Assembly: GCA_000746015.1 (NCBI GenBank)
Contig: KN050797.1
Span: 54,675 to 118,674, forward strand
From: Lachnospiraceae bacterium MA2020
GTDB lineage: Bacteria > Bacillota > Clostridia > Lachnospirales > Lachnospiraceae
Direction: 5' to 3'
Length of the DNA: 64,000 nt
The number at the start of each line of letters is the position of its first letter. Position 1 is the stretch's first letter. Shown here one piece after another: positions 50,252-63,890 of this stretch. Below the pieces are notes generated by a model. That model saw only the letters and a program-made list of their open reading frames with translations, did no database searches and was not told the origin of the DNA. The position numbers and the translations under genes are program-made.

Positions 50252-52114
50252 ATGCGTAAATGGGATTGTGTGGCATGGATGACCGCAGTGGCACTAGCAC
50301 TGGGGACAACCATGCCATCTTCCGTTGTGTGGGGAGATGAAGTTGTAGAGATTAATGAGGATGAAATATCATCTGCATCTGAGACTGCGGCTGAAAGCGA
50401 AGAAGACGAAGATAATGATTTCTCAATCATGGGCGATACGATAGATGATAAAACTAAGCTTGCCTATGTGATCAAAGATGGAGGAGCTGTCGTAAAAGGC
50501 TACTCCGGCGGCAACTCTGATAAGGGCGTAAAGATCGAGATACCGAAGAAACTTGGTGGTAAGAAAGTAATTCGAATTGCGAAAGAAGCTTTTAGCCATC
50601 GTGATCCAAATAAAAAATATTACACAACAGTTAAGTCAGTAGTAATACCTCCGACGGTAGAAACGATAGGTGCATCGGCGTTCGAATTTCAGGATTTGAA
50701 AAAGGTTACTTTCAGCGAGCCTGAGAAAAGTAAACTTACGGTGATAAAGGATAGCGCTTTTGCATATAATGATGAGCTTAAATCCATAAGCCTGCCGGAT
50801 AGCGTGACAACTATAGGGGAGTCAGCATTTCGCTGCAATACAGCAGGATCGACTGTGGGACAGTTTACAAGTCTTGTATTGCCGGCTCATCTGCAGACAA
50901 TAGGTGATAATGCCTTTCAGGGGCATCCAAATCTTTCATCGGTAACATTTGGAAAAGAGATCACTTCACTGGGACATGCCTCTTTTCATTATGCTGGCCT
51001 GACAAGAGTACAGCTTCCTAATTCCTGTACTAATCTTTCGGGAGCTTTTCAGAGTAATCAGAAACTGGAAGAGTTTATCTTTCCTAACAAGATCACAGAA
51101 AGCAAGTATGATTTCTACTGCTGCAGTTCGTTAAAGAAGATATATGTGCCTAAGTCAATGAAGCTGTTTGTTCCAAAAGATTTTGAAGGCAGCAGCAGTC
51201 TGACCGATGTATATTATCAGGGATCAGAGGAAGAATGGAATGCTATACAGAGGAATGATGAGTTTGATAATTATGTTTTGAAGAAGGCTACAAAGCATTT
51301 CCATGCATCATTAGCTGACTTTGGAGCAGTAGATGACCCGGCAGACCCATATGGTGATCCTACACCGAAGCCTGCACCGGCGCCAGAGCCGACACCAACG
51401 CCAGAGCCGACACCGACACCGGAGCCAACACCAACGCCGGAGCCAACACCAACGCCGGAGCCAGAACCAACACCGGAGCCGACACCAAAGCCGGATCCAA
51501 CACCGACACCAGAGCCAGAACCAACGCCGGAGCCAACACCAGCACCGGATCCAACACCGGAACCAGAGCCAACTCCAGAGCCGGCACCGACACCAACGCC
51601 ATCAGATAATACTGTTTCGCCAAATAAGCCAACACCATCAGATAACACGGTTTCACCAAATAAACCGGAGAAGACAGTTATCAATAAGGATGGTTTTGAA
51701 ATAAGCTATTATTCAGAAGTGCCATTCTCGGGTAAAAAAATGGATATCAAAAATTTTGATATCTCAGTAAATAAGGATGGAAAGTCCTACGCTGCTTCAA
51801 AATTAAAGGTTAATAAAAAGTCAGGCAAAATTCAGATAAAGAAGCTGACGCCTGTGGACAAGAAAACACAAAAGACGGTTAAGAAGCTTACAAAAGGTAA
51901 CGGTGGCTTAGATTTTAAGGTCACAGCTTACACAGTTTCGTCTGATTCACCTGTAACTGCAAAATTCACAAAGAAAGGTGAACTTAAGAGTGTCCTGATC
52001 AAATTTGGTGAAAATATTTACAAGTGCAATAAAGATGAGTATGACTTTGATAAGGCATCAAAGACTCTGACATTTAAGGGAAGTAATCTTACAGGAAAAT
52101 ATGTCATAGGTTAA
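50252..52114 (+). CDS. Secreted BspA-like leucine-rich-repeat (LRR_5) protein with Pro-Thr stalk
   Basis: 620 residues. Signal peptide about 1-29 (VWGDE cleavage region). An acidic linker leads to BspA/TpLRR repeats at about 60-345: units such as [34 protein letters not shown] and [16 protein letters not shown] Pro-Thr-Glu stalk of [10 protein letters not shown] units covers about 368-450, followed by two [10 protein letters not shown] copies, and a C-terminal domain (about 475-620) rich in Lys/Asp with [19 protein letters not shown]. No LPXTG is present, so it may be released or held by the C-terminal domain. Adhesion to host or plant polymers is the usual inference for BspA proteins. AGGGAGGA gives a strong ribosome site. 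Confidence 0.85.
51358..51606 (+). repeat. Pro-Thr-Glu codon repeat (stalk)
   Basis: Short units of 6-12 bp (ccaacacc, ccagagccg, and similar) encode alternating PT and PE dipeptides. The tract has a base composition far more C-rich than the surroundings and is likely to vary in length between strains by slipped-strand pairing. Confidence 0.8.
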
Positions 52115-52153
52115 GTTTAAGTGAGATTAAAAACATAATATTGTAGGTTATAA

Positions 52154-52193
52154 AAAGGCAGATATCGGCATAAAACCGGTATCTGTCTTTTGT
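52154..52193 (+). terminator. Terminator after the LRR protein
   Basis: AAAGGCAGATATCGG (52154-52168) pairs with CCGGTATCTGTCTTT (52176-52190) with one G-U or mismatch, followed by TTTTG. A second short stem TCCGCC-AAA-GGCGGA lies at 52200-52214. Confidence 0.8.
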
Positions 52194-52215
52194 TGCGTAT
52201 CCGCCAAAGGCGGAC

Positions 52216-52244
52216 TTGCAAGAAAAAAGATAATATCATAAAAT
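52216..52244 (+). promoter_or_regulatory. Predicted sigma-A promoter of the VTC-DUF4956-CotH operon
   Basis: TTGCAA (52216-52221), 17-base spacer, TAAAAT (52239-52244), 41 bp before the VTC gene. Confidence 0.6.
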
Positions 52245-52284
52245 TATGTAGGTGTATAAATATTAGTACAAAGAAGGTGATGTA

Positions 52285-52986
52285 ATGACGGACAGGAATT
52301 ATCGTCATGAGTTTAAGTATCTGTCCACTGAAAGAGCACTCAGACAGCTGGAAGTCAGGCTGAATGGAGTGGTGGCGCGTGACAGCCATGTCATGGATAC
52401 CGGTCGGTATCTCATACGCAGTGTGTATTTTGATGACTTAAACAATTCCTGCTATAGGGAGAATGAGGATGGAGCAGATCCAAGGGAGAAATTCAGGATA
52501 CGTATCTACAATGCAGACAGCTCAAGGATCGCTCTTGAGTGTAAGCAGAAGTATCGGTCAATGACACATAAGGATACACAGGTCATCGACAGAGATATGT
52601 ATGATATTCTGATGGGAGATGATCTATCTTTTGACATAAAAGAAAGCTGCCCTGCACTGGTTAAGAAGGTAATGATGCTCAAAAAGACAAGACTTCTGGC
52701 ACCAAAGATCATAGTGCAGTATGAGAGGATACCATTTATATGTAACAATGGAAACGTCAGGATAACCTTTGATATGAATATATCAGCTTCAAAGGACTTT
52801 GAGCATTTCTTTGAGGATCGTATAAGTACTCTGCCGGTTCTTTGCAGTGGTCAGCATTTACTTGAAGTCAAGTATGATGCATATCTGCCGGACTATATTA
52901 AGTCGGCTATAGATAATTGTGAGTTAAATTACACGACGTTTTCTAAGTATTATTTGTGCCGGAAGGCAGGGAGGTTATTATTGTGA
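52285..52986 (+). CDS. VTC-domain protein (polyphosphate polymerase-like)
   Basis: 233 residues, a single VTC domain related to the catalytic tunnel of yeast Vtc4, which makes polyphosphate from ATP. Basic and acidic tunnel segments are visible: YRHEFKYLS, YLIRSVYFDDLNNSCY, KFRIRIY, IALECKQKYR, IVQYERIPFI, VRITFDMNIS and LLEVKYDAYLP. No membrane helix is present, so membrane attachment would come from the next gene product. AAGGTG precedes the ATG. The stop overlaps the GTG start of the DUF4956 gene (GTGA). Activity is inferred from the fold; the family may use other nucleotides. Confidence 0.85.
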   Translation: MTDRNYRHEFKYLSTERALRQLEVRLNGVVARDSHVMDTGRYLIRSVYFDDLNNSCYRENEDGADPREKFRIRIYNADSSRIALECKQKYRSMTHKDTQVIDRDMYDILMGDDLSFDIKESCPALVKKVMMLKKTRLLAPKIIVQYERIPFICNNGNVRITFDMNISASKDFEHFFEDRISTLPVLCSGQHLLEVKYDAYLPDYIKSAIDNCELNYTTFSKYYLCRKAGRLLL

Positions 52987-53660
52987 AGTTTGGTGATATA
53001 TTTAAGAACTCGTTTTTGCAGGGATTTGCAGGCAGAGAAATTGGAACAATAGAGATTTTTGCTGCACTCGCGCTGACATGTGTTCTGGCATGCTACATTT
53101 TTGCAGTATACAGAGTTGTTACGCGCAAGACATTCTATTCTAAAAATTTTAATATTTCACTTGCAGTAGTCAGTGTGATAACTGCAGCTATAATTTTGAC
53201 GATACAGTCAAGCCTTGTGGTATCACTTGGTATGGTAGGTGCTCTGTCCATAGTAAGATTTCGTACGGCAGTCAAGGAGCCTATGGATCTTGCATTTATG
53301 TTTTGGTCTATAAGTATCGGTATAATGTGCGGCGCAGGTATGCTTGAGATCGCAGTGATATCTTCAATGGTGATCACAATATTAGTTGTAGTCCTTGAGA
53401 TGATACCAAATATGCATGGATCTGAGCTTTTGATCGTAAATATTGAAGATAATGATGACGCGATCGAAAAACTTGAAGCTGTGATCAAAAAGCATAGCAG
53501 CTCAAGCCATGTGAAGTCTAGAAATGTAAGAGCTGGGGTCGAAGATATAGTATATGAAGTAAGGACAAAAGAGGAAAGAAATCTTGCCAGAGCAGTAGCT
53601 GGTATTGAGGCCGTAAATTCAGTATCAGTGCTCGATCATGATGGAGAGATCATGCTATGA
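52983..53660 (+). CDS. DUF4956 four-helix membrane protein
   Basis: 225 residues from GTG 52983, chosen because GGGAGG lies nine bases upstream. About four membrane helices (about 22-44, 57-75, 80-92, 115-140) are followed by a cytoplasmic ferredoxin-like domain (about 146-225). The segment SLGMVGALSIVRFRTAVKEP is the family hallmark. DUF4956 proteins are repeatedly found next to VTC-domain and CotH genes, where they may supply the membrane channel or anchor for the VTC domain, as the membrane part does in yeast VTC. That role is inference. The gene shares four bases with both neighbours. Confidence 0.85.
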   Translation: MKFGDIFKNSFLQGFAGREIGTIEIFAALALTCVLACYIFAVYRVVTRKTFYSKNFNISLAVVSVITAAIILTIQSSLVVSLGMVGALSIVRFRTAVKEPMDLAFMFWSISIGIMCGAGMLEIAVISSMVITILVVVLEMIPNMHGSELLIVNIEDNDDAIEKLEAVIKKHSSSSHVKSRNVRAGVEDIVYEVRTKEERNLARAVAGIEAVNSVSVLDHDGEIML

Positions 53661-55495
53661 TGCGTAAAGTCCGCATTATGCCGGTGGTGTTATTGCTGCT
53701 GGCTTTGATCCCGCTTGTCCTGATAATAAAATATCTGGGGAATGATCAGGAGGAAACAAAGCTGTTTGACAGTGTAAGAATATCAGATAATTCTGATAAA
53801 GATATACTGAGTATCGGACTGCATTATGACACAAATCATGACTCCGATACATGGTATGCGTTTTTGCCTTCTGTATTTGATCCGCAAAACATCCATTTAA
53901 GTTTTAAGGGATGCGATCATATTGAGCTTGAAGATATAAATGGAGTACATTACAGCTTTGATAATAACGACCGTTTCAAGGATGTCCGTCAGAATGAAAC
54001 TTATTATATAGAGTTCTGCGACAAAAGAGGCGGAGTCATCAAAAAAGGTAAATTTATGATGATGCAGTCTAAAAAAGTGCCTGCATTATTTATAAATACG
54101 GAGTCAGGAAGCCTTGACTATATTCATTCAAGCAAAAAGCATTCAGAAGTGGCAGAGATGCTTCTTAAAAATACAGATGGAAATATAGAATATCGGGGCA
54201 GGCTTTCAAGTATAAAGGGCAGGGGTAATACTACATGGGGTTATGATAAGAGACCTTATGCTATAATTTTGGAAAAAAGTACTTCTCTTTTGGGCATGTC
54301 GAGGTCAAAAAACTGGGCACTTATCGCTAACTATGTTGACAGATCCGAGATAAGAGACAGATTTGTAAAGTACATAGCAGGCCAGATGGATATGAAATTC
54401 GTTCCCGGATGTGAATATGTAGATCTTTACTGCAATGGTGAATACAGAGGCTTGTATCTGCTTTCTGAAAAGAATGAGGTTGATAAGCAGAGGCTTGACA
54501 TAGAGGACCTTCAGCTTAAAAACAGAAGAGTCAATGTAAAGCCTCTTGGTGAGTATAGTGCGGTTTCTGTAAATGCGAGCGATCCCGGGGAGCGACGCGG
54601 ATTTGATATTTCAAGCCCTGAGGATATTACAGGCGGCTATCTTTTTGAGAAAAACTATTCTGACAGATATACCAGGTTCCCGAGCCGCTTCAGGCTTAAT
54701 AGCGGCGAGAAGTACTGTATACGCTCACCGTATAATGCTTCTATGGAGGAAGTCGAGTATATTGCAGGAATCATGCAAAAAATTGAAGATGGGGCAGCGG
54801 AAGGAGAGGATGTTTCTGAGTACGCAGATCTAAAGAGCTTTGCTGATAAGTATCTTTTGGAGGAGTTTGTGGCAAACGAAGCTTCAGGAGCTACGAGTTC
54901 TTTCTTTTATAAGGACTCTGACAGAGTGGACAGCCATGTTTTTGCAGGACCTGCCTGGGATTATGATAAATGTCTTGGAAATGCCATGAATCCAATGATA
55001 GATGATGTGAGGCATATGACATTTTTGACAGCACATGCCTCAAATACAAAGATATTCTTTAATCTTGTAACAAAAAATGAAGATTTCCGAACGATCGTAA
55101 GAGACGAATACTTAAATGTGTTCCGTCCGATAATACAGAAGATCATTAATGATGGCATTGTCTATGAATATGCAAAGATACCTACTACAGATGAAATGGA
55201 GCCGCTTCGCTGGCAGGGAAATATTGATAACGTGAAAAATGTTGTGGAAGATGTCGAGCAGTTTAGCATAGGAAGACTGAAGTTTTTTGATGATATATTT
55301 ATTGATAATGATGACGTCTGTATTATAACATTCGATGACAGAACAGGCTTAGAACTTGGGGTGATAAGCGGCGAGGCAATAGGAGAGCTTCCTCCGGCAG
55401 ATGAAGGATCTAAATGGATCAATGAGGCAAATGGTGAAGAAATCAATGAAATGTCAGTAATCACAGAAAGCATCACTGTAAAGCAGGGAAAGTAA
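53657..55495 (+). CDS. CotH-family secreted protein kinase-like protein
   Basis: 612 residues. An N-terminal signal anchor (about 6-25) puts the rest outside the membrane. Residues about 130-470 form a CotH kinase-like domain: SIKGRGNTTWGYDKRPYAI, LLGMSRSKNWALIANYVDRS, YRGLYLLSEKNEVDKQRL and the catalytic-type motif AGPAWDYDKCLGN. CotH of Bacillus phosphorylates spore-coat proteins on Ser; homologues occur widely in surface proteins of anaerobes. A beta-rich N-terminal region (about 40-125) and a C-terminal tail follow the core. Its ATG overlaps the DUF4956 stop, so all three genes are made together. Substrate unknown. Confidence 0.87.
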   Translation: MMRKVRIMPVVLLLLALIPLVLIIKYLGNDQEETKLFDSVRISDNSDKDILSIGLHYDTNHDSDTWYAFLPSVFDPQNIHLSFKGCDHIELEDINGVHYSFDNNDRFKDVRQNETYYIEFCDKRGGVIKKGKFMMMQSKKVPALFINTESGSLDYIHSSKKHSEVAEMLLKNTDGNIEYRGRLSSIKGRGNTTWGYDKRPYAIILEKSTSLLGMSRSKNWALIANYVDRSEIRDRFVKYIAGQMDMKFVPGCEYVDLYCNGEYRGLYLLSEKNEVDKQRLDIEDLQLKNRRVNVKPLGEYSAVSVNASDPGERRGFDISSPEDITGGYLFEKNYSDRYTRFPSRFRLNSGEKYCIRSPYNASMEEVEYIAGIMQKIEDGAAEGEDVSEYADLKSFADKYLLEEFVANEASGATSSFFYKDSDRVDSHVFAGPAWDYDKCLGNAMNPMIDDVRHMTFLTAHASNTKIFFNLVTKNEDFRTIVRDEYLNVFRPIIQKIINDGIVYEYAKIPTTDEMEPLRWQGNIDNVKNVVEDVEQFSIGRLKFFDDIFIDNDDVCIITFDDRTGLELGVISGEAIGELPPADEGSKWINEANGEEINEMSVITESITVKQGK

Positions 55496-55504
55496 CATAA
55501 GAAC

Positions 55505-55533
55505 TTGACAAAAGATAGGTAATTTAGTACAAA
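55505..55533 (+). promoter_or_regulatory. Predicted promoter of the Na/phosphate cotransporter
   Basis: Consensus TTGACA (55505-55510), 17-base spacer, TACAAA (55528-55533), 72 bp before the transporter start. Confidence 0.65.
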
Positions 55534-55605
55534 TTTAAAGGTATGTAATTTTATTATGGCAGAGTTAAAACGACTTAAGAATGTCATTTATGAAGGAGAA
55601 ATTTA

Positions 55606-57234
55606 ATGACGATATTTGATCTGTTCAATGTATTGGGAGGGCTTGCTTTCTTTCTGTTTGGTATGACGGTTATGTCTGGAGGTCTTAAAAAGGCAGCCGG
55701 TGGACGCATGGAAGAGATGCTTCAGAAAATGACAGATAATCTGGCTAAGAGCCTTGCTTTTGGTGCGATCATTACTATAGCGATACAGTCCTCATCGGCA
55801 TTGACAGTAATGCTTGTCGGTCTTGTAAACTCAGGTATCATGAACCTTACGCAGACTGTTGGTATAATAATGGGTTCAAACGTAGGTACTACGCTTACAG
55901 CATGGATACTCAGTACCAGCGGGATACAGACTGATAATATTTTCTTATCAATGCTCAAGCCTGAGCACTTTTCACCGATTATCGCTCTTGTGGGCGTAGT
56001 CATGATGATGGCTGCCAAGGAGGAGAGAAGAAAAGACATAGGTTCGATACTTATAGGATTTGCAGTCTTGATGAAAGGCATGCAGATCATGTCTGACACG
56101 TTGAAGCCTCTTGCAGATATGCCTGAGTTTGCGCATATTCTTACGGCTTTTCGCAATCCTATACTTGGTGTTATCGTAGGTGCGGTATTTACGGGCGTTA
56201 TCCAGTCATCAGCGGCATCTGTCGGTGTACTTCAGGCGTTATCGCTTACAGGTCAGATTTCATATGCTATGGCAATCCCGATCATCATGGGACAAAATAT
56301 CGGTACTTGTGTAACAGCCCTTTTGTCTGCTATAGGTGTAAGCAAAAATGCTAAAAGAGTATCGGTAATACATGTGAGTTTCAATCTCATAGGTACTGCA
56401 GTTGGACTTGTAGTGTATCTTATCTGTGAGTCGATCATAAGGATACCGGCTCTTGAGGAGCCTATAACCCCATTTGCGGTTGCGGGATTTCATTCCGTAT
56501 TTAATATTATGACAACTATAATCCTTTTGCCATTTGGAAAACAGCTCGTATATATAGCAAGAAAGGTAGTTAAAGAAGATACTGTTGCAGAGGTATTCCT
56601 TGATGACCGTCTTCTCATGACTCCTACTCTTGCAGTAGAAGAGTGCAGGAAAAAGACTGTACTTGTCATGAATGAGGCATTTGGCGGACTTAAGATCGCT
56701 CTTGATATGTTTGAGCAGTATGACGAGGAAAAAGACGGTCAGGTGCAGGAGATGGAAGCGACAGTTGATGACCTTGTAGAGAAGTGCAATCAGTTCCTTA
56801 TCAAGCTTTCTTCTAATAATATTACAGATATCAATGCTGTATATGTTGCTGACATGCTTCAAAGTCTTGGAGATATGGAGAGGATAAGCGACTATTCACT
56901 CTCACTTGCCGGTGCGACAAAAAAAATGAAGAAAAAGCCGCCAAAGTACTACAGAAAAGAGTGTAGAGTCCTTAATACAGAGATTACAGATCTGCTCATT
57001 GATATCGAGGAGTGTTATATCAAAAAAGATGGCAATAAAGCTTCTGACGTGATAGAGCGTGCTAATGATCTTGTAGGTCGTATCAAGCTTTTGCGTAAGA
57101 AAGATATCAAGGGACTCAAGAATGGCGAAAGTGATGCTCAGCTTAGTGTTTATATGACTGAGTATCTGACAGGATGTCGTCGTGTTGTAGAGCACGGAAT
57201 AAATATTGCAGGCTATCTGGCTGATAGCTTTTAA
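55606..57234 (+). CDS. Na/phosphate cotransporter with PhoU-like domain
   Basis: 542 residues. Two inverted helix-hairpin repeats carry the NaPi-II signature QSSSALTVMLVGLVNSG and QSSAASVGVLQALS, with GSNVGTTLTAWI and GQNIGTCVTALLSAIG. The cytoplasmic C-terminal part (about 340-540) is PhoU-like, helical, with VLVMNEAFGGLKIALDMFEQY. The protein imports phosphate with sodium; PhoU domains restrain uptake. It follows the VTC operon from its own promoter, so phosphate import and a putative polyphosphate polymerase lie together. AAGGAG precedes the ATG. Confidence 0.92.
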   Translation: MTIFDLFNVLGGLAFFLFGMTVMSGGLKKAAGGRMEEMLQKMTDNLAKSLAFGAIITIAIQSSSALTVMLVGLVNSGIMNLTQTVGIIMGSNVGTTLTAWILSTSGIQTDNIFLSMLKPEHFSPIIALVGVVMMMAAKEERRKDIGSILIGFAVLMKGMQIMSDTLKPLADMPEFAHILTAFRNPILGVIVGAVFTGVIQSSAASVGVLQALSLTGQISYAMAIPIIMGQNIGTCVTALLSAIGVSKNAKRVSVIHVSFNLIGTAVGLVVYLICESIIRIPALEEPITPFAVAGFHSVFNIMTTIILLPFGKQLVYIARKVVKEDTVAEVFLDDRLLMTPTLAVEECRKKTVLVMNEAFGGLKIALDMFEQYDEEKDGQVQEMEATVDDLVEKCNQFLIKLSSNNITDINAVYVADMLQSLGDMERISDYSLSLAGATKKMKKKPPKYYRKECRVLNTEITDLLIDIEECYIKKDGNKASDVIERANDLVGRIKLLRKKDIKGLKNGESDAQLSVYMTEYLTGCRRVVEHGINIAGYLADSF

Positions 57235-57251
57235 CTACGAAGGGAAATCGG

Positions 57252-58691
57252 ATGGAAAAGTTTTCGGAAATAGTTTCGGCTGTAGATGGGTTTGTGTGGG
57301 GACCTGTAATGCTCATATTGCTTGTCGGTACCGGAATTTATATGACAATTAGACTAAAGTTTCAGACTTGGTTTAATCTTGGTTATGCATTGAGAATCAT
57401 CTTCAGCAGTGACTCAAGGCATACAAAGAGAGGAACAGGCGACGTTTCTCCATTTGCATCACTTATGACAACTCTTGCGGCTACGATCGGTACAGGTAAT
57501 ATCGCCGGAGTTGCTACGGCGATGGCTGCAGGAGGTCCCGGAGCACTCGTATGGATGTGGATCAGTGCTCTTTTTGGACTCACGACAAAGTTTAGTGAGT
57601 GCATGCTTGCAGTAAAGTACAGAGAGAAAAATGAGATAGGCGAAATGAATGGTGGACCGATGTTCACCATGAGAAATGGCTTCAAGAACAAAAAGCTTGG
57701 TGCAGCACTAGGTTTTCTGTTTGCTTTTTTTGTATCGTTTGCATCCTTTGGAATTGGAGACATGACACAGTCAAATTCCATTGCATCGGCAGTAAATACT
57801 TCATTTGGAGTACCGCACTGGATCACGGGAGCAATTGTTACAGTACTTACTTTGGCGATAATCGTAGGCGGCATCAAGAGCATATCTAAGGTGTCATCAG
57901 TAGTCGTACCTGCCATGGCGTTATTTTACGTGATCGCCGGAGTTATATGCATTGTATTAAATATCAAGAATGTTCCATACGGCATATATCAGATTTTTAT
58001 GATGGCCTTTAATCCTAAAGCTATAGGCGGTGGAGTAGTTGGTACTATCACAGTAAGTGTGATGAATTCTATAAGATTTGGCGTAGCAAGAGGATGCTTT
58101 TCAAATGAGGCAGGCATGGGATCTGCGGCTATCACAGCTGCATCAGCTACCACGGACGATGCTGTGCGCCAGGGATACATCAACATGACAGGTACATTCT
58201 TTGACACCATAGTTGTTTGCTCTATCACAGGTCTTGTGATCGCATCTTCAGGTGTGCTCGGCACAGCAGATGCTGCGGGCAAGACGCTTTCAGCAGTTCC
58301 GTTGACTATGGCTGCTTTTGCGGCGACTCTTGGACCGATTGGTTCATATCTTGTATCGATAGGTATTGTGCTTTTTGCTTTCTCGACAATTATCGGTTGG
58401 GAGTACAACGGTGAGAAAGCAGTAGAGTACCTTATACCAAATAGAAAAGTTATATATGCATACAGAGTAGTTTATTCACTTTTTGTATTTGTTGGAGCGA
58501 CGCAGACGCTTGAGCTTATCTGGAATATATCAGATATCATGAATGCTCTTATGTCTGTTCCAAACCTCATCAGTCTTATCGCATTATCAAATGTTGTGGC
58601 AGATGAAGTGAAGCGTTTCCAGCCTACTATTGAGAGAGAAATGGCTCTGTTTAAGTGTGGAAAGCCTATAACAGTAGAAGATGAAGAATAA
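57252..58691 (+). CDS. Alanine/glycine:cation symporter (AGCS family)
   Basis: 479 residues, about 11 membrane helices. N-terminal WGPVMLILLVGTGIYMTIRL and the signatures LAATIGTGNIAGVATAMAAG, GPGALVWMWISALFG and CFSNEAGMGSAAITAA are the AGCS marks. It takes up alanine or glycine with Na. It starts 18 bases after the phosphate transporter and probably shares its transcript, which ends in a strong terminator. Physiological link to the phosphate genes is not evident. Confidence 0.94.
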   Translation: MEKFSEIVSAVDGFVWGPVMLILLVGTGIYMTIRLKFQTWFNLGYALRIIFSSDSRHTKRGTGDVSPFASLMTTLAATIGTGNIAGVATAMAAGGPGALVWMWISALFGLTTKFSECMLAVKYREKNEIGEMNGGPMFTMRNGFKNKKLGAALGFLFAFFVSFASFGIGDMTQSNSIASAVNTSFGVPHWITGAIVTVLTLAIIVGGIKSISKVSSVVVPAMALFYVIAGVICIVLNIKNVPYGIYQIFMMAFNPKAIGGGVVGTITVSVMNSIRFGVARGCFSNEAGMGSAAITAASATTDDAVRQGYINMTGTFFDTIVVCSITGLVIASSGVLGTADAAGKTLSAVPLTMAAFAATLGPIGSYLVSIGIVLFAFSTIIGWEYNGEKAVEYLIPNRKVIYAYRVVYSLFVFVGATQTLELIWNISDIMNALMSVPNLISLIALSNVVADEVKRFQPTIEREMALFKCGKPITVEDEE

Positions 58692-58707
58692 AAGATAGAA
58701 TAAAATG

Positions 58708-58745
58708 AAGATCCCCTTGCTGGATGTAAGCAAGGGGATCTTTTT
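58708..58745. terminator. Bidirectional terminator
   Basis: AAGATCCCCTTGC (58708-58720) and GCAAGGGGATCTT (58730-58742) form a 13-bp perfect stem with TTTTT after it. It lies between convergent transcripts. Confidence 0.88.
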
Positions 58746-58747
58746 GA

Positions 58748-59563
58748 TCATAGAACAGTTATAATACTCAAAGCAGCGGCTATTCCAAGTCCTAAAAGGA
58801 TGATGCCAAGGAGCATGAGACCGAGGCGTGCATGCTTTTCTGTAACAGTGCCGCTTTTGTGACTATAGTACAGCGGCATGTGCTCACCAATCTTGAAGGT
58901 ACTTTCAATACTCGAGTTGACATTGCAGAGACGGTAATTCTCTACGTCATCGATAAGATAAGAAACAATAGGGTAGTATGTGAATTTTGCACCCTTTATT
59001 ATCTTTGACTCCTTTGAGACCTGACGGGTATAAATGTCGATGATCTCTGAGTCGAGCATCTCAAGCTGCTTGTTTTTCAAGCTTATAAACTCTAAGATAA
59101 GGCTGAGCCCGCCTGATACCAATATCCCGGCGAGACAGAGCATTGCAATAGGCTCCTTGCCTTGATTTTCGGCGAGAGCGAGGAAGATGAGCAGGATGCC
59201 TGCGATAAGTATGAAAAATGGATTCATAGGATATTCATTTTCCTGACTTATGATAGATATCCTGTCATCATTACTGACTAAGTAAAGGCGTACGCTCTGA
59301 CCACTCTGGTAAGGAGCGGGAGATTTCACGTTCTTAGTATAAATGTGGTTGTTCTTTGGGTCAGTATAGGTTACTGATACATTGTAATAGTTATATAAGT
59401 CTCGTTCTTTAGAGTCTTTTTTCTGAACATGGCTGCAGCTTTTGACAGTGCCGTCAGCGCATGCATTTTTTCGATTTTGTAAAATAAACTGTTTAGTCTG
59501 GTTTGTACCTACCAGAAACATTATGATGCCCGGGACATACATAAGTATCTGAGAGAAATTCAT
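58748..59563 (-). CDS. DUF3592-type membrane protein
   Basis: 271 residues. N-terminal helix (about 5-22), two central helices (about 115-133 and 138-160) and a C-terminal helix (about 246-269) separate two similar extracytoplasmic beta segments: YYNVSVTYTDPKNNHIYTKN with YQSGQSVRLYLVSND, and TYYPIVSYLIDDVENYRLCN with FKIGEHMPLYYSHK. This is a tandem DUF3592 layout. Function unknown. It is the last gene of the minus-strand ascorbate region, 39 bases after the DeoR gene, and may be a read-through passenger. Confidence 0.7.
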   Translation of the reverse strand: MNFSQILMYVPGIIMFLVGTNQTKQFILQNRKNACADGTVKSCSHVQKKDSKERDLYNYYNVSVTYTDPKNNHIYTKNVKSPAPYQSGQSVRLYLVSNDDRISIISQENEYPMNPFFILIAGILLIFLALAENQGKEPIAMLCLAGILVSGGLSLILEFISLKNKQLEMLDSEIIDIYTRQVSKESKIIKGAKFTYYPIVSYLIDDVENYRLCNVNSSIESTFKIGEHMPLYYSHKSGTVTEKHARLGLMLLGIILLGLGIAAALSIITVL

Positions 59564-59602: not shown

Positions 59603-60379
59603 TCACATAGGTACTATGATGATCTCCATCCCATAGGAGCGGAGCTTTTCGATTATTGCAGGATCAGACTTGCTGTCAGTGATAAGTGTGACCTGCCTGT
59701 CGTAACTGCAACTGCCGTACGAGTTTTCGCGGTTTTCGCGACGCTGCAGCTTGCTGTGGTCAGCAAGTATATATAATTCATGCTTGGTACGGCTTATCAT
59801 TGCCTCATTAATACCGATCTCGTTTGGTATATTATACTGAAATTCGCCGTCATCATAAACGGCCTCACATCCTATAAAAGTCCTGTCAGCAGAGACTTCC
59901 AAGAGGTTTCTCATGGTGAAATCACCGACCATTATATGATTGCGGAGCTCACCGCCGGTCATTTTGATCGTAACGTTTGCAGGATATCTTTTAGTGATAG
60001 CCAGACCATTATTTGTATAAACAGTAACGGTCTTTTCATCAAGATAATCCAGCATCTTAAGAGCTGTTTTACTTCCGTTTATAAAAATGCTGTCGCCATC
60101 CTGTATAAGTCCGGCAGCGTATTTTGATATAACATCGCGGCTTTCCTGGATATCTTCGCGGATAGAGCGGTTGGATCTTGCTCTGTCGAGAGATATGGCA
60201 CCGCCGTGGGTGCGGCGCAGGAGATGTCGCTGCTCAAGTTCTTTAAGGTCACGTCTTACAGTCATTATGGAAATCTGAAATCTGCCTGCAATAGTATCTG
60301 AATGAACTTCACCTTTTTCACGTACGAGCTTCAAAATATCCTGTTGTCTTGCCTCTACATTAGTCTTGCTGTTCTTCAT
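59603..60379 (-). CDS. DeoR-family transcriptional regulator, probable ascorbate operon regulator
   Basis: 258 residues. DeoR-type helix-turn-helix (about 12-60): RQQDILKLVREKGEVHSDTI then ISIMTVRRDLKELEQRHLLRRTHGGA. The C-terminal DeoRC sensor domain (about 80-250) includes DGDSIFINGSKTALKM, VYTNNGLAI and DHSKL. Members bind sugar phosphates; here L-ascorbate 6-phosphate is a reasonable guess by analogy with UlaR, the DeoR-type repressor of the E. coli ula genes. It lies directly downstream of ulaB, separated by a hairpin, and so is probably co-transcribed. Confidence 0.88.
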   Translation of the reverse strand: MKNSKTNVEARQQDILKLVREKGEVHSDTIAGRFQISIMTVRRDLKELEQRHLLRRTHGGAISLDRARSNRSIREDIQESRDVISKYAAGLIQDGDSIFINGSKTALKMLDYLDEKTVTVYTNNGLAITKRYPANVTIKMTGGELRNHIMVGDFTMRNLLEVSADRTFIGCEAVYDDGEFQYNIPNEIGINEAMISRTKHELYILADHSKLQRRENRENSYGSCSYDRQVTLITDSKSDPAIIEKLRSYGMEIIIVPM

Positions 60380-60402
60380 ACTACTTACCCCGCTGTGTAA
60401 TA

Positions 60403-60432
60403 TAGCCTGGACAACCTAAATTGCCCAGGCTA
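60403..60432 (-). promoter_or_regulatory. Intercistronic hairpin between ulaB and the DeoR gene
   Basis: TAGCCTGG (60403-60410) and CCAGGCTA (60425-60432) pair perfectly around a 14-base loop. No T-tract follows on the minus strand, so it looks like a processing or stabilising element that lowers regulator expression relative to the transport genes. Confidence 0.5.
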
Positions 60433-60449
60433 CTTTGCTTTGACATATA

Positions 60450-60755
60450 TTAGTCTAACAGACCTGCTTCCTGAAGTCCAGCCTCAATCTCTTTGTCAGA
60501 CATAACATTCTTAAGAGGAATAACGATTGTCTTATCGCCAACATCTTCAAAATTCTTTGTGAATGTCTTTGCACAGAAAACTATATCGTAGTTTCTTGCA
60601 GCACTCTTGCCTTCAGAGATAGGGCAGTGGCGAAGCTCAGCAGGCTTAGCGCTGTACTTCTTCATAACCTTGTCGATAGCCTTTTCCATCATAAGTGATG
60701 AACCTGCGCCGTTTGCGCAGCATGCGAGAATTCTTTTTCCATCTAATTTACTCAT
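60450..60755 (-). CDS. ulaB: PTS ascorbate-type enzyme IIB
   Basis: 101 residues. The phospho-carrier of the L-ascorbate phosphotransferase system, receiving phosphate from IIA on the cysteine of the P-loop CCANGAGSSLMMEKA (Cys13) and passing it to the incoming sugar acid. The ATG at 60755 (MSKLDGKRIL) is preferred; the longer frame would start inside the AAAGG ribosome site. It lies eight bases from ulaA in the usual C-A-B order. Confidence 0.88.
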   Translation of the reverse strand: MSKLDGKRILACCANGAGSSLMMEKAIDKVMKKYSAKPAELRHCPISEGKSAARNYDIVFCAKTFTKNFEDVGDKTIVIPLKNVMSDKEIEAGLQEAGLLD

Positions 60756-60763
60756 AATTAAAA

Positions 60764-62245
60764 TCAACCTTTCTTTGCTTTATGCTCAACATAAGCGTCA
60801 TAATCTTCTGTAATAAGGAAGTATCCTTCTGGATCCATACGATACTCGATCTGTGGGATTGCAAGAAGTATGATAACAACGATTGCAACACCGATATAAC
60901 CAAGATAGTGCATAGATACTGTAAACAGTGGCCATACTGTATCCCAGTCGAACATTCCGAGGTATCCGCCGTAGTTAGCAAGGCCAACCCAACCAGAGAT
61001 AAGAGCTGCACCAAATACCTGGATAAGTCCTGAGAAGAATGGGATGATAAGGCAAGCCTTTAAGCCACCCTTTTCATTAGCAACAAGTCCGATAGTAGCA
61101 TTATCGAAGAATACAGGAACGAAACCACAGATGATGATAGTAGGTGAACCCATAACGATAAGTGCGATGATCGCAATGATCTGTCCTGTAAGACCTGCAA
61201 GGAAACCAAATGTTACTGCGTTTGAATCACCGAAACCGTAGCAAACTGCGCAGTCAACGCCAGGAACTGAAGCTGGAAGAAGCTTGTCAGCGATACCCTG
61301 GAATGAAGCAGTAAGCTCTGTAACGAATGTACGTACACCAAGCTGAAGTATTGCAAGGTATACAGCGAACTGAAGTGATGTATTAAATACGTAGAATGCG
61401 AAATTCTCAGTCTCCTTTGTAGCCTCAGCTGCAACGAAGAATGGCTTTCCGATGATCGCCATGATAATTCCGAAGAATACTGTCATGAGGATAGCTGTAC
61501 AAACCATGTTCTCACTGAAGATTGAGAAGAAACCAGGCATCTCGAGGTCGCCGACCTTCTTGATCTTCTTCTTGCCTGTCTTGTCGCCGAAGAGCTTTTC
61601 TGCAAGCCAGGCACCGAGGCGGATACCAAACATCTGCTGGTGAGCGATAGCGAAACCTGCGCCCTCTGTAAGCTCCTGCATAGGCTTAACTGTGAGGTTA
61701 GAACCTACTGCCCAGTATGCACCGAGGATAACTGACATAACGATCATAAGTGCTACGTCATTGTTACGAAGTGCAGGAAGAGCGAAGAGGATGAGCCAGT
61801 AAGCTGTAGCAGCCTGCTGTACCTGAACATGACCTGTTGTGAAAAGTGTACGACACTTTGTGATCTTATTGAAGCGAACAAGGATGATGTTTACGATGAA
61901 CGCGATCAAAAGAAGTGTCATAACCTGTGAGAAGCCCTTACCAAATACTTCTTCAACACCTGCTGTAACAGCGTTCTGTCCATAGTATGGATCGATAACG
62001 GCAGCAGTAAGGTTAAATCTTTCCTTAAGTCCTGCAAGGATAGGACGGAATGTGCTCGTAAGTCCGCCGGAACCAACATTAAGGATGAGCATACCAATTA
62101 TAGCTTTCAAAGTACCTGCAAGAGTATCATACCACTTTTTGCCCATGAGGCAGTATCCTAAGAGTGTCAGGAAACCAACCATGTATGGGGCCTTCTGTAA
62201 AATGTAAGTTGCAAAAAATGTCCAAATTGCATTTAATATAGCCAT
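60764..62245 (-). CDS. ulaA: PTS ascorbate-specific enzyme IIC
   Basis: 493 residues. The membrane permease of the L-ascorbate phosphotransferase system. The UlaA signature runs GYCLMGKKWYDTLAGTLKAI then GMLILNVGSGGLTSTF and DPYYGQNAVTAGVEE near the N-terminus; repeats such as PGVDCAVCYGFGDSNAVTFG follow. About 11 membrane helices. A closely related family member could carry another sugar acid, but the presence of UlaG supports ascorbate. AAGGAG at the start fits. Confidence 0.93.
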   Translation of the reverse strand: MAILNAIWTFFATYILQKAPYMVGFLTLLGYCLMGKKWYDTLAGTLKAIIGMLILNVGSGGLTSTFRPILAGLKERFNLTAAVIDPYYGQNAVTAGVEEVFGKGFSQVMTLLLIAFIVNIILVRFNKITKCRTLFTTGHVQVQQAATAYWLILFALPALRNNDVALMIVMSVILGAYWAVGSNLTVKPMQELTEGAGFAIAHQQMFGIRLGAWLAEKLFGDKTGKKKIKKVGDLEMPGFFSIFSENMVCTAILMTVFFGIIMAIIGKPFFVAAEATKETENFAFYVFNTSLQFAVYLAILQLGVRTFVTELTASFQGIADKLLPASVPGVDCAVCYGFGDSNAVTFGFLAGLTGQIIAIIALIVMGSPTIIICGFVPVFFDNATIGLVANEKGGLKACLIIPFFSGLIQVFGAALISGWVGLANYGGYLGMFDWDTVWPLFTVSMHYLGYIGVAIVVIILLAIPQIEYRMDPEGYFLITEDYDAYVEHKAKKG

Positions 62246-62283
62246 ATCTTCTCCTTAATTTAGTAACTTATGTTACTATCACA

Positions 62284-62766
62284 TCATTCATTGTCACATG
62301 GATATTTTTTCATTGCCTCCAGAATGTCCTCTGCACTTCGACACTTCCCCAAAGCGTCGATAAGGTCATCATTCATGAAAATATCCATAAGCTGCGAAAT
62401 ATTATTCATGTGCTCTTCAGAGTTGACAGCTGAAAGAGTGAAGAAAAGATTGGCTTCCTTCTTTTCTCCGTCCTCGTCCTCACCGAAGTCGATCATGTTC
62501 TCTGATACCATAAAGCCTATGCCTGTTTTATAGGCGCCCTCTGGATTTTCAGTTGTATGAGGCATTGCGATATTGTGCTCGAAAACAACATAAGGACCGT
62601 GCTTTTCGATACATGCAACGATCTGCTTGTAGTAATCTTCACTTACACTGCCATCCTCTACAAGAGGAAGTGCGCTCAAACGCACTGCCTCCTGCCATGT
62701 CACACCTTCACCGTTGATGAAGCTGTAGTGTTTCTTCTCTACGATTGTCTCTAATACATTAGCCAT
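62284..62766 (-). CDS. ulaC: PTS ascorbate-type enzyme IIA
   Basis: 160 residues, fructose/mannitol-type IIA fold. The phosphorylated His70 lies in EHNIAMPHTTENPEGAY, and the ends LFFTLSAVNSEEHMNNISQL and the helix following are typical of this family. It takes phosphate from HPr and gives it to UlaB. A GGGAG-like ribosome site lies ahead of the ATG. It is in the order G-C-A-B. Confidence 0.9.
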   Translation of the reverse strand: MANVLETIVEKKHYSFINGEGVTWQEAVRLSALPLVEDGSVSEDYYKQIVACIEKHGPYVVFEHNIAMPHTTENPEGAYKTGIGFMVSENMIDFGEDEDGEKKEANLFFTLSAVNSEEHMNNISQLMDIFMNDDLIDALGKCRSAEDILEAMKKYPCDNE

Positions 62767-62786
62767 TTATTTTTCTCCCGTTTATA

Positions 62787-63890
62787 TTACAGACATGATC
62801 TGTAAGGAATGTTCTGTGGGTGCTCGAAGCAATCCTCAAATCCACGACGGTGGTGGTAGTAGATCTTATCCTTGTCCTGTGGATACATATACTTGCCGCC
62901 TACCTGCCAGAAGAATGGATGGAACTTGTACTCGTTACGATCCTTCTTGAAATCGTAAAGGAGCTTGATCTCATCACAATCTGCCTGGAAGTTTGTCCAT
63001 ACATCCCAGTGAATAGGAACTACAACGTCACAACGAAGGTTCTCAGCCATACGGAGTACATCGATAGATGTCATCTTGTCCTGCATTCCGATAGGATTCT
63101 CACCGAATGAACCGAATGCTACGTCAATATCATAATCTTTACCGTGCTTAGCAAAGTAGATTGAGAAGTGTGAATCACCTGAGTGATAGATGTTTCCGCC
63201 AGGTGTCTTTACGAGGTAGTTTACAGCCTTCTCATCCATATCTGTAGGACACTTGCCTGTAAGCTCTTCTCTGTCCTCACCAGTAGAGTCTGTAGTAACG
63301 ATACATGTACGATCAAAGCTGTCAAGACATACGATCTCGATATCCTTAAGCTTGATAACATCGCCAGGCTTTACAATCTTGCATCTCTCTTCAGGAACTC
63401 CCCACTTTATCCATGTCTCAACAGACTTCAAAGGTCCTATAAATGGTACCGGGATTTCCTTTCCGTTCTCATCTGTTGTTGTCATGCCGCTGTTAATAAC
63501 ATGTGCAGCCCACTCAGCAGACATATGATCCTGATGATAATGTGTAGCAAGGACTGCATCAACCTGCTTAAAAGCGAATGGATCAATAACGAATGGTACA
63601 TTCCTTAAGTTTGGCTGCATAAGGCGTCCGCCGCACATATTTGCCATCTGGTGTCCCGGCTTCATCTTGCCGTCACCGTGTGTGCGCTTACCATTTCCAC
63701 ACCAAAGGTCGATAGTAATGTTTGCGCCACCTGGTGTCTTGAACCAGATGCCTGTGCATCCGAGCCACCACATTGCTACCTGTCCCTCAGGTACTACTGC
63801 ATTTTCGATGTCCTCTACAAGCCATGTGCCCCACTCTGGGAAAGTACTGTTGATCCAGCTTTCGCGGGTCATTTCTGAAATCTTACTCAT
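62787..63890 (-). CDS. ulaG: L-ascorbate-6-phosphate lactonase
   Basis: 367 residues, metallo-beta-lactamase fold. Opens the lactone of L-ascorbate 6-phosphate in the cytoplasm, giving 3-keto-L-gulonate 6-phosphate. Metal ligands are visible in THYHQDHMSAEW (His117, His119, Asp121, His122) and YHSGDSHFS; the C-terminal segment FQADCDEIKLLYDFKKDRN is typical of UlaG. AGGAGGAG precedes the start. It is the first visible gene of the operon. The later steps (UlaD, UlaE, UlaF) are not in the window. The 110 bp before it are AT-rich and should hold the promoter, but I could not fix its boxes. Confidence 0.93.
   Translation of the reverse strand: MSKISEMTRESWINSTFPEWGTWLVEDIENAVVPEGQVAMWWLGCTGIWFKTPGGANITIDLWCGNGKRTHGDGKMKPGHQMANMCGGRLMQPNLRNVPFVIDPFAFKQVDAVLATHYHQDHMSAEWAAHVINSGMTTTDENGKEIPVPFIGPLKSVETWIKWGVPEERCKIVKPGDVIKLKDIEIVCLDSFDRTCIVTTDSTGEDREELTGKCPTDMDEKAVNYLVKTPGGNIYHSGDSHFSIYFAKHGKDYDIDVAFGSFGENPIGMQDKMTSIDVLRMAENLRCDVVVPIHWDVWTNFQADCDEIKLLYDFKKDRNEYKFHPFFWQVGGKYMYPQDKDKIYYHHRRGFEDCFEHPQNIPYRSCL

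Follow-up and report, generated by a model that had tools for sequence, protein, structure and literature searches.

We analysed a 64,000-nucleotide (nt) stretch of Lachnospiraceae bacterium MA2020 (GCA_000746015.1, contig KN050797.1, forward-strand positions 54,675–118,674), hereafter the window, from a genome of 3.72 Mb in 49 contigs. The window carries three consecutive genes for a VTC-domain protein, a DUF4956 protein and a CotH-fold protein, preceded by a hairpin (window positions; aa, amino acids):

52153–52191, + strand: likely terminator, a hairpin ending in TTTT on its 3′ side (folding energy −22.1 kcal/mol, z −6.4)
52285–52986, + strand: VTC/TTM-domain protein, 233 aa, predicted polyphosphate polymerase (PF09359, E 1.8e-33)
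52983–53660, + strand: DUF4956 protein, 225 aa, about five membrane helices, MgtC-like (PF16316, E 5.3e-14)
53657–55495, + strand: CotH-fold protein, 612 aa, membrane-anchored or secreted (PF08757, E 5.7e-24)

Each gene overlaps the next by four bases, as the original prediction for this DNA had described: the DUF4956 start that gives the overlap is the GTG at 52983 (GTGA), over the VTC stop, and the CotH start at 53657 lies within an ATGA. The identities given there to these three proteins and to a downstream sodium/phosphate (Na/Pi) cotransporter with a PhoU domain were borne out by Pfam matches. The hairpin, as good as which none was found in 200 shuffles, sits between VTC and an upstream gene (50252–52114) for a BspA-type leucine-rich-repeat protein (PF13306) with a long Pro-Thr-Glu-Pro repeat linker; it is missing from the list of a pattern-based terminator scan. 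Given this strong hairpin upstream of VTC, the three-gene set is probably a transcription unit of its own. The same genome holds a second set on contig C5 (locus L038), in the order CotH, VTC, DUF4956, with a gene for an HD-domain protein directly upstream (L038 13297–14418). A third CotH stands alone on contig C2.

VTC and DUF4956 almost never occur apart, far more consistently than chance would give. We surveyed 196 genomes of the order, 119 of the phylum and 14 named controls. Across the order both families were present in 122 genomes, VTC only in 1, DUF4956 only in 1 and neither in 72; the two exceptions were a genome with its DUF4956 match at a contig edge (G006) and one with a weaker VTC match (G086, E 4.3e-14). 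At phylum level the two families were found in the same 15 genomes, with equal copy numbers in each, and among the controls in the same three (Bacteroides ihuae, Corynebacterium glutamicum, which matched CotH as well, and Methanosarcina acetivorans). The genes are also neighbours: with 150 matches listed per family for the order, 142 of the 150 DUF4956 matches had VTC within 3 kb, always upstream on the same strand (142/142), with a median gap of 146 nt between the domain matches. The 21 phylum-level matches comprised 17 with VTC first, 3 with DUF4956 first (G410, G395 and one of G487) and 1 with the two on separate contigs (G448). The window DUF4956 was matched at E 1e-10 in 47 of the 48 genomes of its own genus. 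The co-occurrence across genomes that the original prediction had called for is therefore present, and its near constancy suits the role given there to DUF4956 as the membrane partner of VTC. In one genome a DUF4956 match with four internal stops lies beside an intact VTC (G001:C25:22017-22301), possibly a decaying pair. Response-regulator-like and sensor-kinase-like genes were noticed by eye near the pairs of L182, L183, L186, L188 and L189.

The VTC domain covers residues 7–225 (PF09359, 116.5 bits against a cut-off of 23) and is the sole domain matched in the 233-aa protein, with neither an SPX domain nor a Vtc-type membrane part matched. A single-sequence search of the Protein Data Bank (PDB) returned nothing; a profile search succeeded, matching Vtc4 chains (best E 2.7e-16), and its significant structural matches were exclusively Vtc subunits. 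In the main alignment segment K11, R71, R73, K87, K96, Y146 and R148 correspond to Vtc4 K200, R264, R266, K281, K294, Y359 and R361, and in a second, low-scoring segment E194, S220 and K221 correspond to E426, S457 and K458. The Vtc4 positions other than R264, R266 and E426 we take to have tunnel or metal roles. Judged by this alignment, the window protein retains the residues that form the basic tunnel and the metal site of yeast Vtc4, including the tunnel residues that the original prediction had named beforehand as its critical test. The R264A/R266A/E426N form of the yeast VTC complex is catalytically impaired (PMC9911596). The window VTC is thus best described as a predicted polyphosphate polymerase. 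Contig C16 of the same genome carries a PPK-family gene, so VTC is probably not the only polyphosphate enzyme of the cell.

The AlphaFold2 model of the DUF4956 protein (predicted local distance difference test, pLDDT, 88.9) has five long helices after residue 20, followed by a C-terminal ACT-like domain. ACT domains top the Foldseek list (best E 1.7e-3), and a second fold list gave NikR and ACT domains with Z of about 10–11.5 over ~75 residues; both lists cover just the ACT-like part, and a membrane structure of MgtC is missing from them. A PDB sequence search with the DUF4956 profile gave weak, unrelated matches only. Alignment by hhalign with five MgtC proteins spanned both the membrane and the ACT parts (192 columns, 96.4%, E 1.4e-9). 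The MgtC family PF02308 matched the window protein at E 5.3e-4 and 20.8 bits, below its curated cut-off of 31.4, and reached E up to 0.001 in 8 of the 60 members of set A5, the window protein included. On these comparisons DUF4956 is kin of MgtC and a non-member by Pfam's rule. SIR_1592 of Streptococcus intermedius has been described as MgtC plus ACT (PMC12345266), in agreement with these findings. Y43, G86, R92, R94 and G113 are invariant in 60 DUF4956 sequences.

The constant core of the module is VTC plus DUF4956, and the outer partner varies. CotH is frequent as the predicted third member: at least 72 of the 150 listed VTC matches of the order have it within 6 kb, which is a lower bound because 150 matches were listed, and the window's own CotH ranked beneath those listed. 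VTC was found in 84 of 90 CotH genomes of the order, and 39 of 123 VTC genomes had no CotH match. We then named 80 loci, the best 80 of 586 places confirmed with a profile of CotH-linked DUF4956 (A3), which therefore lean toward the CotH-linked type; both 8-kb flanks were present in 40, and many flanks were cut. Open reading frames (ORFs) were called with a simple caller, leaving 12 DUF4956 genes with no called VTC, perhaps missed genes. Of the 65 called VTC–DUF4956 pairs, 33 had an upstream CotH, 10 a downstream one and 3 one on each side; for 19 none was seen. Eight same-genus neighbourhoods divided evenly, with CotH flanking the pair in four (one neighbourhood is truncated at a contig end, and its DUF4956 was hidden by the ORF caller) and only upstream in four. 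By Pfam, the set of L231 is flanked by genes for ETF and phosphate acetyl/butyryl transferase, beyond which are an acetokinase-family and a SecA gene, and that of L232 is followed by the gene for ribosomal protein L3; the other same-genus neighbourhoods were alike in part by eye.

Ten further VTC–DUF4956 contexts were picked by hand. CotH was present in four, one of them with PelF, PelG and DUF4832, and in three a Cthe_2159 lipoprotein gene directly followed DUF4956. There a Cthe_2159 carbohydrate-binding protein takes the place of CotH (L186 8061–10175, L185 8246–9544 and L187 5225–6520). Cthe_2159 proteins were also found in 7 of the 80 named loci.

We propose that VTC and DUF4956 form a bacterial polyphosphate synthase-translocase with an exchangeable envelope partner, a reading that we hold with slightly less than even confidence. 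The cytosolic VTC domain would build polyphosphate from ATP in its basic tunnel, as the conserved residues suggest, and the chain would exit toward DUF4956, the MgtC-like membrane protein. The invariant arginine pair of DUF4956, R92 and R94, probably faces the cytosol, judging by its charge. We infer that the chain would cross the membrane via a DUF4956 oligomer and that the ACT-like domain may hold the regulatory place of the yeast SPX domains. A constant pair with a changing outer partner counts for such a core. The yeast VTC complex (Vtc1/3/4) resembles the window VTC in its catalytic TTM domain, down to the tunnel residues, and the proposed analogy is that synthesis is coupled to membrane passage. 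The window VTC protein differs in having neither an SPX domain nor a Vtc-type membrane part, and the bacterial partner DUF4956 is MgtC-like and has an ACT-like domain.

In the model of the window CotH (pLDDT 87.1) a helix at the N-terminus and a beta part precede a kinase-like domain, and a further beta part forms the C-terminus. A single-sequence PDB search found nothing, and a profile search succeeded. The model superimposes on the CotH spore-coat kinase of B. subtilis and B. cereus (PDB 5jd9/5jda; for 5jd9 Z 22.5, root mean square deviation 2.9, 330 residues aligned) and on a Fam20C chain (Z 8.0), but has extra N- and C-terminal parts relative to the spore-coat enzyme, and its gene stands beside VTC and DUF4956. 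In B. subtilis CotH the substitutions D228Q and D251A each abolish activity (PMC7821199). Two Asp residues of the 5jd9 alignment are 23 apart, the same spacing as between 228 and 251, and their window equivalents are Ala409 and Asp435: the metal-site Asp is kept, along with Trp434 and Lys198, whereas the catalytic Asp is replaced. With Ala409 at that site the window protein is not filed as an active kinase, and the outer kinase proposed in the original prediction is unlikely for this copy.

The loss is shared by the window's relatives. In an 88-row CotH tree, both Asp are present in 74 rows. One clade of five rows (support of 95 in the SH-like approximate likelihood ratio test, SH-aLRT) unites the window, two copies of L071, L152 and L080; none has the first-site Asp, and L080 also has Asn at the second (metal) site. 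Four other rows show no residue at either column and one none at the first. An Arg at the metal column in L038 and its copies, L092 and L143 looks like an alignment slip, with an Asp close by. In the eight same-genus neighbourhoods all 11 readable CotHs lack the catalytic Asp, including the two of L071 (as L231; probably one record, counted once), and so do both CotHs beside a close DUF4956 in G349 (L210). With the window, L152 and L080, this makes 16 of 16 readable CotHs of the clade and the closest same-genus modules, all with Ala or Gly; 5 of the 16 were placed in the tree, and the rest are called kin by neighbourhood and motif. Beside close DUF4956 genes, L204 and the second copy of L235 were unreadable at the site. 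By contrast, six of six readable CotHs of the same genus whose DUF4956 is more distant (44–54% identity) keep the Asp (L213, L218, L221, L222, L224 and L225). The other CotHs of the window's genome, on C5 and C2, are Asp-containing as well. Outside the window's clade the non-Asp rows are L145 (Arg) and L170, L171 and L173, in which Glu stands at the catalytic position.

The Asp-less CotHs and their module partners are conserved under purifying selection and are not decaying. The ratio of nonsynonymous to synonymous substitution rates (dN/dS) was 0.045–0.097 for five CotH pairs with dS under 1.5, 0.039 for VTC (one pair) and 0.016–0.099 for DUF4956 (three pairs), all measured on relatives, the window pairs being saturated. 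We predict that the CotHs of the window's group are pseudokinases. Among the matches listed, our literature search (preprints and most subscription papers outside its scope) found no account of CotH pseudokinases.

Conservation with a lost catalytic residue could also mean another activity. SelO-type kinase-fold proteins have other transfer activity, and the Asp-less CotHs might resemble them; the retained Asp435, Trp434 and Lys198 and the low dN/dS are in keeping with this idea. The position before the lost Asp is variable, however (E, D, S, Q or N), which leaves no constant candidate for a substitute base, and the clade member L080 has lost the metal Asp too. We regard such an activity as improbable. 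A neighbouring residue as replacement for the lost Asp was rejected, no acidic residue there being constant in the group.

Returning to the proposed synthase-translocase, the exchangeable partner would handle the product outside the membrane, and it could be an active CotH, a Cthe_2159-type carbohydrate-binding lipoprotein or, in the window's clade, an Asp-less CotH-fold protein. The last would work as a binding or scaffold protein. The parallel is Fam20A, a pseudokinase of the secretory pathway that serves Fam20C in this way and activates it (PMC5413348). The Fam20 proteins belong to the same fold group as the window CotH, and beyond that the likeness is one of logic only. In its fullest form, our proposal is a two-gene VTC system proper to bacteria and some archaea, in which a free VTC polymerase domain is coupled to an MgtC-like translocase, polyphosphate is exported and the envelope partners are interchangeable. 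One clade, with members in the Lachnospiraceae, would use one or two conserved CotH pseudokinases outside the cytoplasm, either to bind the chain or to control an active CotH. As a whole we consider this possible but on the unlikely side.

Alternatively, the exported polyphosphate might be fuel, a high-energy phosphate donor with which CotH would phosphorylate glycans or proteins of the surface, ATP being absent there. Most CotHs keep both Asp (74 of 88 rows), CotH genomes mostly have VTC (84 of 90), Fam20B of the same fold group phosphorylates a sugar (PMC5413348), and some modules lie within pel or other polysaccharide clusters. Against this, none of the 16 readable CotHs of the clade and the nearest modules of the genus, the window's included, has the catalytic Asp, 39 of 123 VTC genomes have no CotH match, and CotH has been described as an ATP-binding kinase (PMC12189002). 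Such a use of the polymer seems to us decidedly unlikely.

The set itself is already reported at pel loci (PMC7112168, PMC12345266); CotH, a polyphosphate polymerase, DUF4956 and DUF4832 are listed beside pel genes in PMC7112168. The pel accessory genes SIR_1592–1594 of S. intermedius and its kin encode the same three kinds of protein contiguously (CotH, VTC, DUF4956), but within a pel cluster with a DUF4832 protein; the window set has a different gene order, with CotH last, and its CotH lacks the catalytic Asp. With queries from one same-family pel locus, PelF, PelG, DUF4832 and DUF2194 had no match at E 1e-3 in the 64-kb window, nor in L038, L039 or the 80 named loci, and membership of the window set in a pel cluster was rejected. 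L191, from a genome of the same family, has CotH-VTC-DUF4956 beside PelF, PelG and DUF4832, so both contexts exist in the family. The authors of PMC12345266 report that they did not find the three-gene synteny outside the Pel locus; the window set, L038 and the 80 named loci, with no pel match, add cases of that kind. A diguanylate cyclase/phosphodiesterase gene accompanies the set in bifidobacterial pel clusters (PMC7112168). NELoc-2 of C. perfringens, for which VTC and CotH genes are tabulated (PMC2879425), is similar in kind: two VTC-domain genes are each followed by a gene for a 222–226-aa membrane protein and then by CotH, with a glycosyltransferase further on. The membrane genes are labelled tubulin/FtsZ in that source, and their DUF4956 identity rests on size and place. 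The original prediction knew of no mechanism for such a set. That stands, as the literature search found no account of a bacterial VTC mechanism among the matches listed; the set, however, is already in print, in kind also at NELoc-2.

A different reading makes the module a regulator of a surface polymer: the MgtC-like DUF4956 would act on the phosphate/ATP balance, VTC would sense or trim triphosphate, and CotH would tune the envelope. TTM-fold enzymes include hydrolases and cyclases, and the similarity of DUF4956 to MgtC points the same way. When SIR_1592 or SIR_1594 was deleted, aggregation of S. intermedius in 10% artificial sputum medium fell to less than half and the amount of Pel was altered (more and less); no such change is reported for SIR_1593 (PMC12345266). 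On the other side, the VTC profile has no significant structural match other than Vtc subunits, and the tunnel residues are conserved; polysaccharide markers (five tested; sugar-transferase, GT2 or LCP found) occur in only 14 of the 80 named loci, many with cut flanks. The general tie of the module to polysaccharide genes is thus only partial, and we think a regulator unlikely.

Several points weigh against a synthase-translocase of VTC and DUF4956. MgtC proteins are known as regulators and are not known as channels. The structures were predicted as single chains, and the fold matches of DUF4956 are confined to its ACT-like part. Three of the ten Vtc4 positions rest on the low-scoring alignment segment, and no paper among the matches listed in the literature search shows that a bacterial VTC domain standing alone makes polyphosphate. 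For deletion of SIR_1593, the VTC gene, no change in aggregation or Pel is reported (PMC12345266); with effects for the DUF4956 and CotH deletions, this fits one linear pathway poorly.

Downstream of CotH the window continues with two transporter genes:

55606–57234, + strand: Na/Pi cotransporter with PhoU domain (PF02690, E 5.9e-60; PF01895, E 1.9e-11)
57252–58691, + strand: sodium:alanine symporter (PF01235, E 5e-132)

The original prediction joined the first of these to the set in a single pathway, from Na/Pi uptake to a polymer and phosphorylated surface proteins. The genes are adjacent in this genome, the Na/Pi gene beginning 110 nt past the CotH end, and the gap holds no marked hairpin (z 0.76). 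A promoter of its own, also predicted, is possible, as TTGACA and TACAAA spaced 17 nt apart were seen there by eye; the promoter scan listed no site in the gap (overall 23 sites in 51900–59000, against 20.5 ± 4.8 in shuffles). No Na/Pi match was found in any of the 80 named loci (40 with both 8-kb flanks) or the eight same-genus neighbourhoods, and the uptake-to-polymer pathway therefore rests on one genome; the missing catalytic Asp of the window CotH also speaks against phosphorylated surface proteins. We rejected the transporter as part of the set on this synteny and regard the pathway as very improbable; the adjacent gene looks like a chance neighbour. The symporter gene begins 17 nt past the Na/Pi gene, and a symporter match was found in 1 of the 80 named loci. 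On the minus strand, 59603–63890 holds phosphotransferase system (PTS) genes (EIIA, EIIB, EIIC-GAT) along with genes for a DeoR regulator and a protein of beta-lactamase fold, presumably resembling an ascorbate-type uptake set.

Of most weight are the near-perfect VTC–DUF4956 pairing and the conserved Asp-less CotH group, which offers a natural test of CotH roles beyond phosphorylation. If VTC and DUF4956 do export polyphosphate, they would provide bacteria with a defined way to place polyphosphate outside the cytosol, would assign a function to a family still called DUF4956, and would link MgtC-type proteins to the movement of phosphate polymers.

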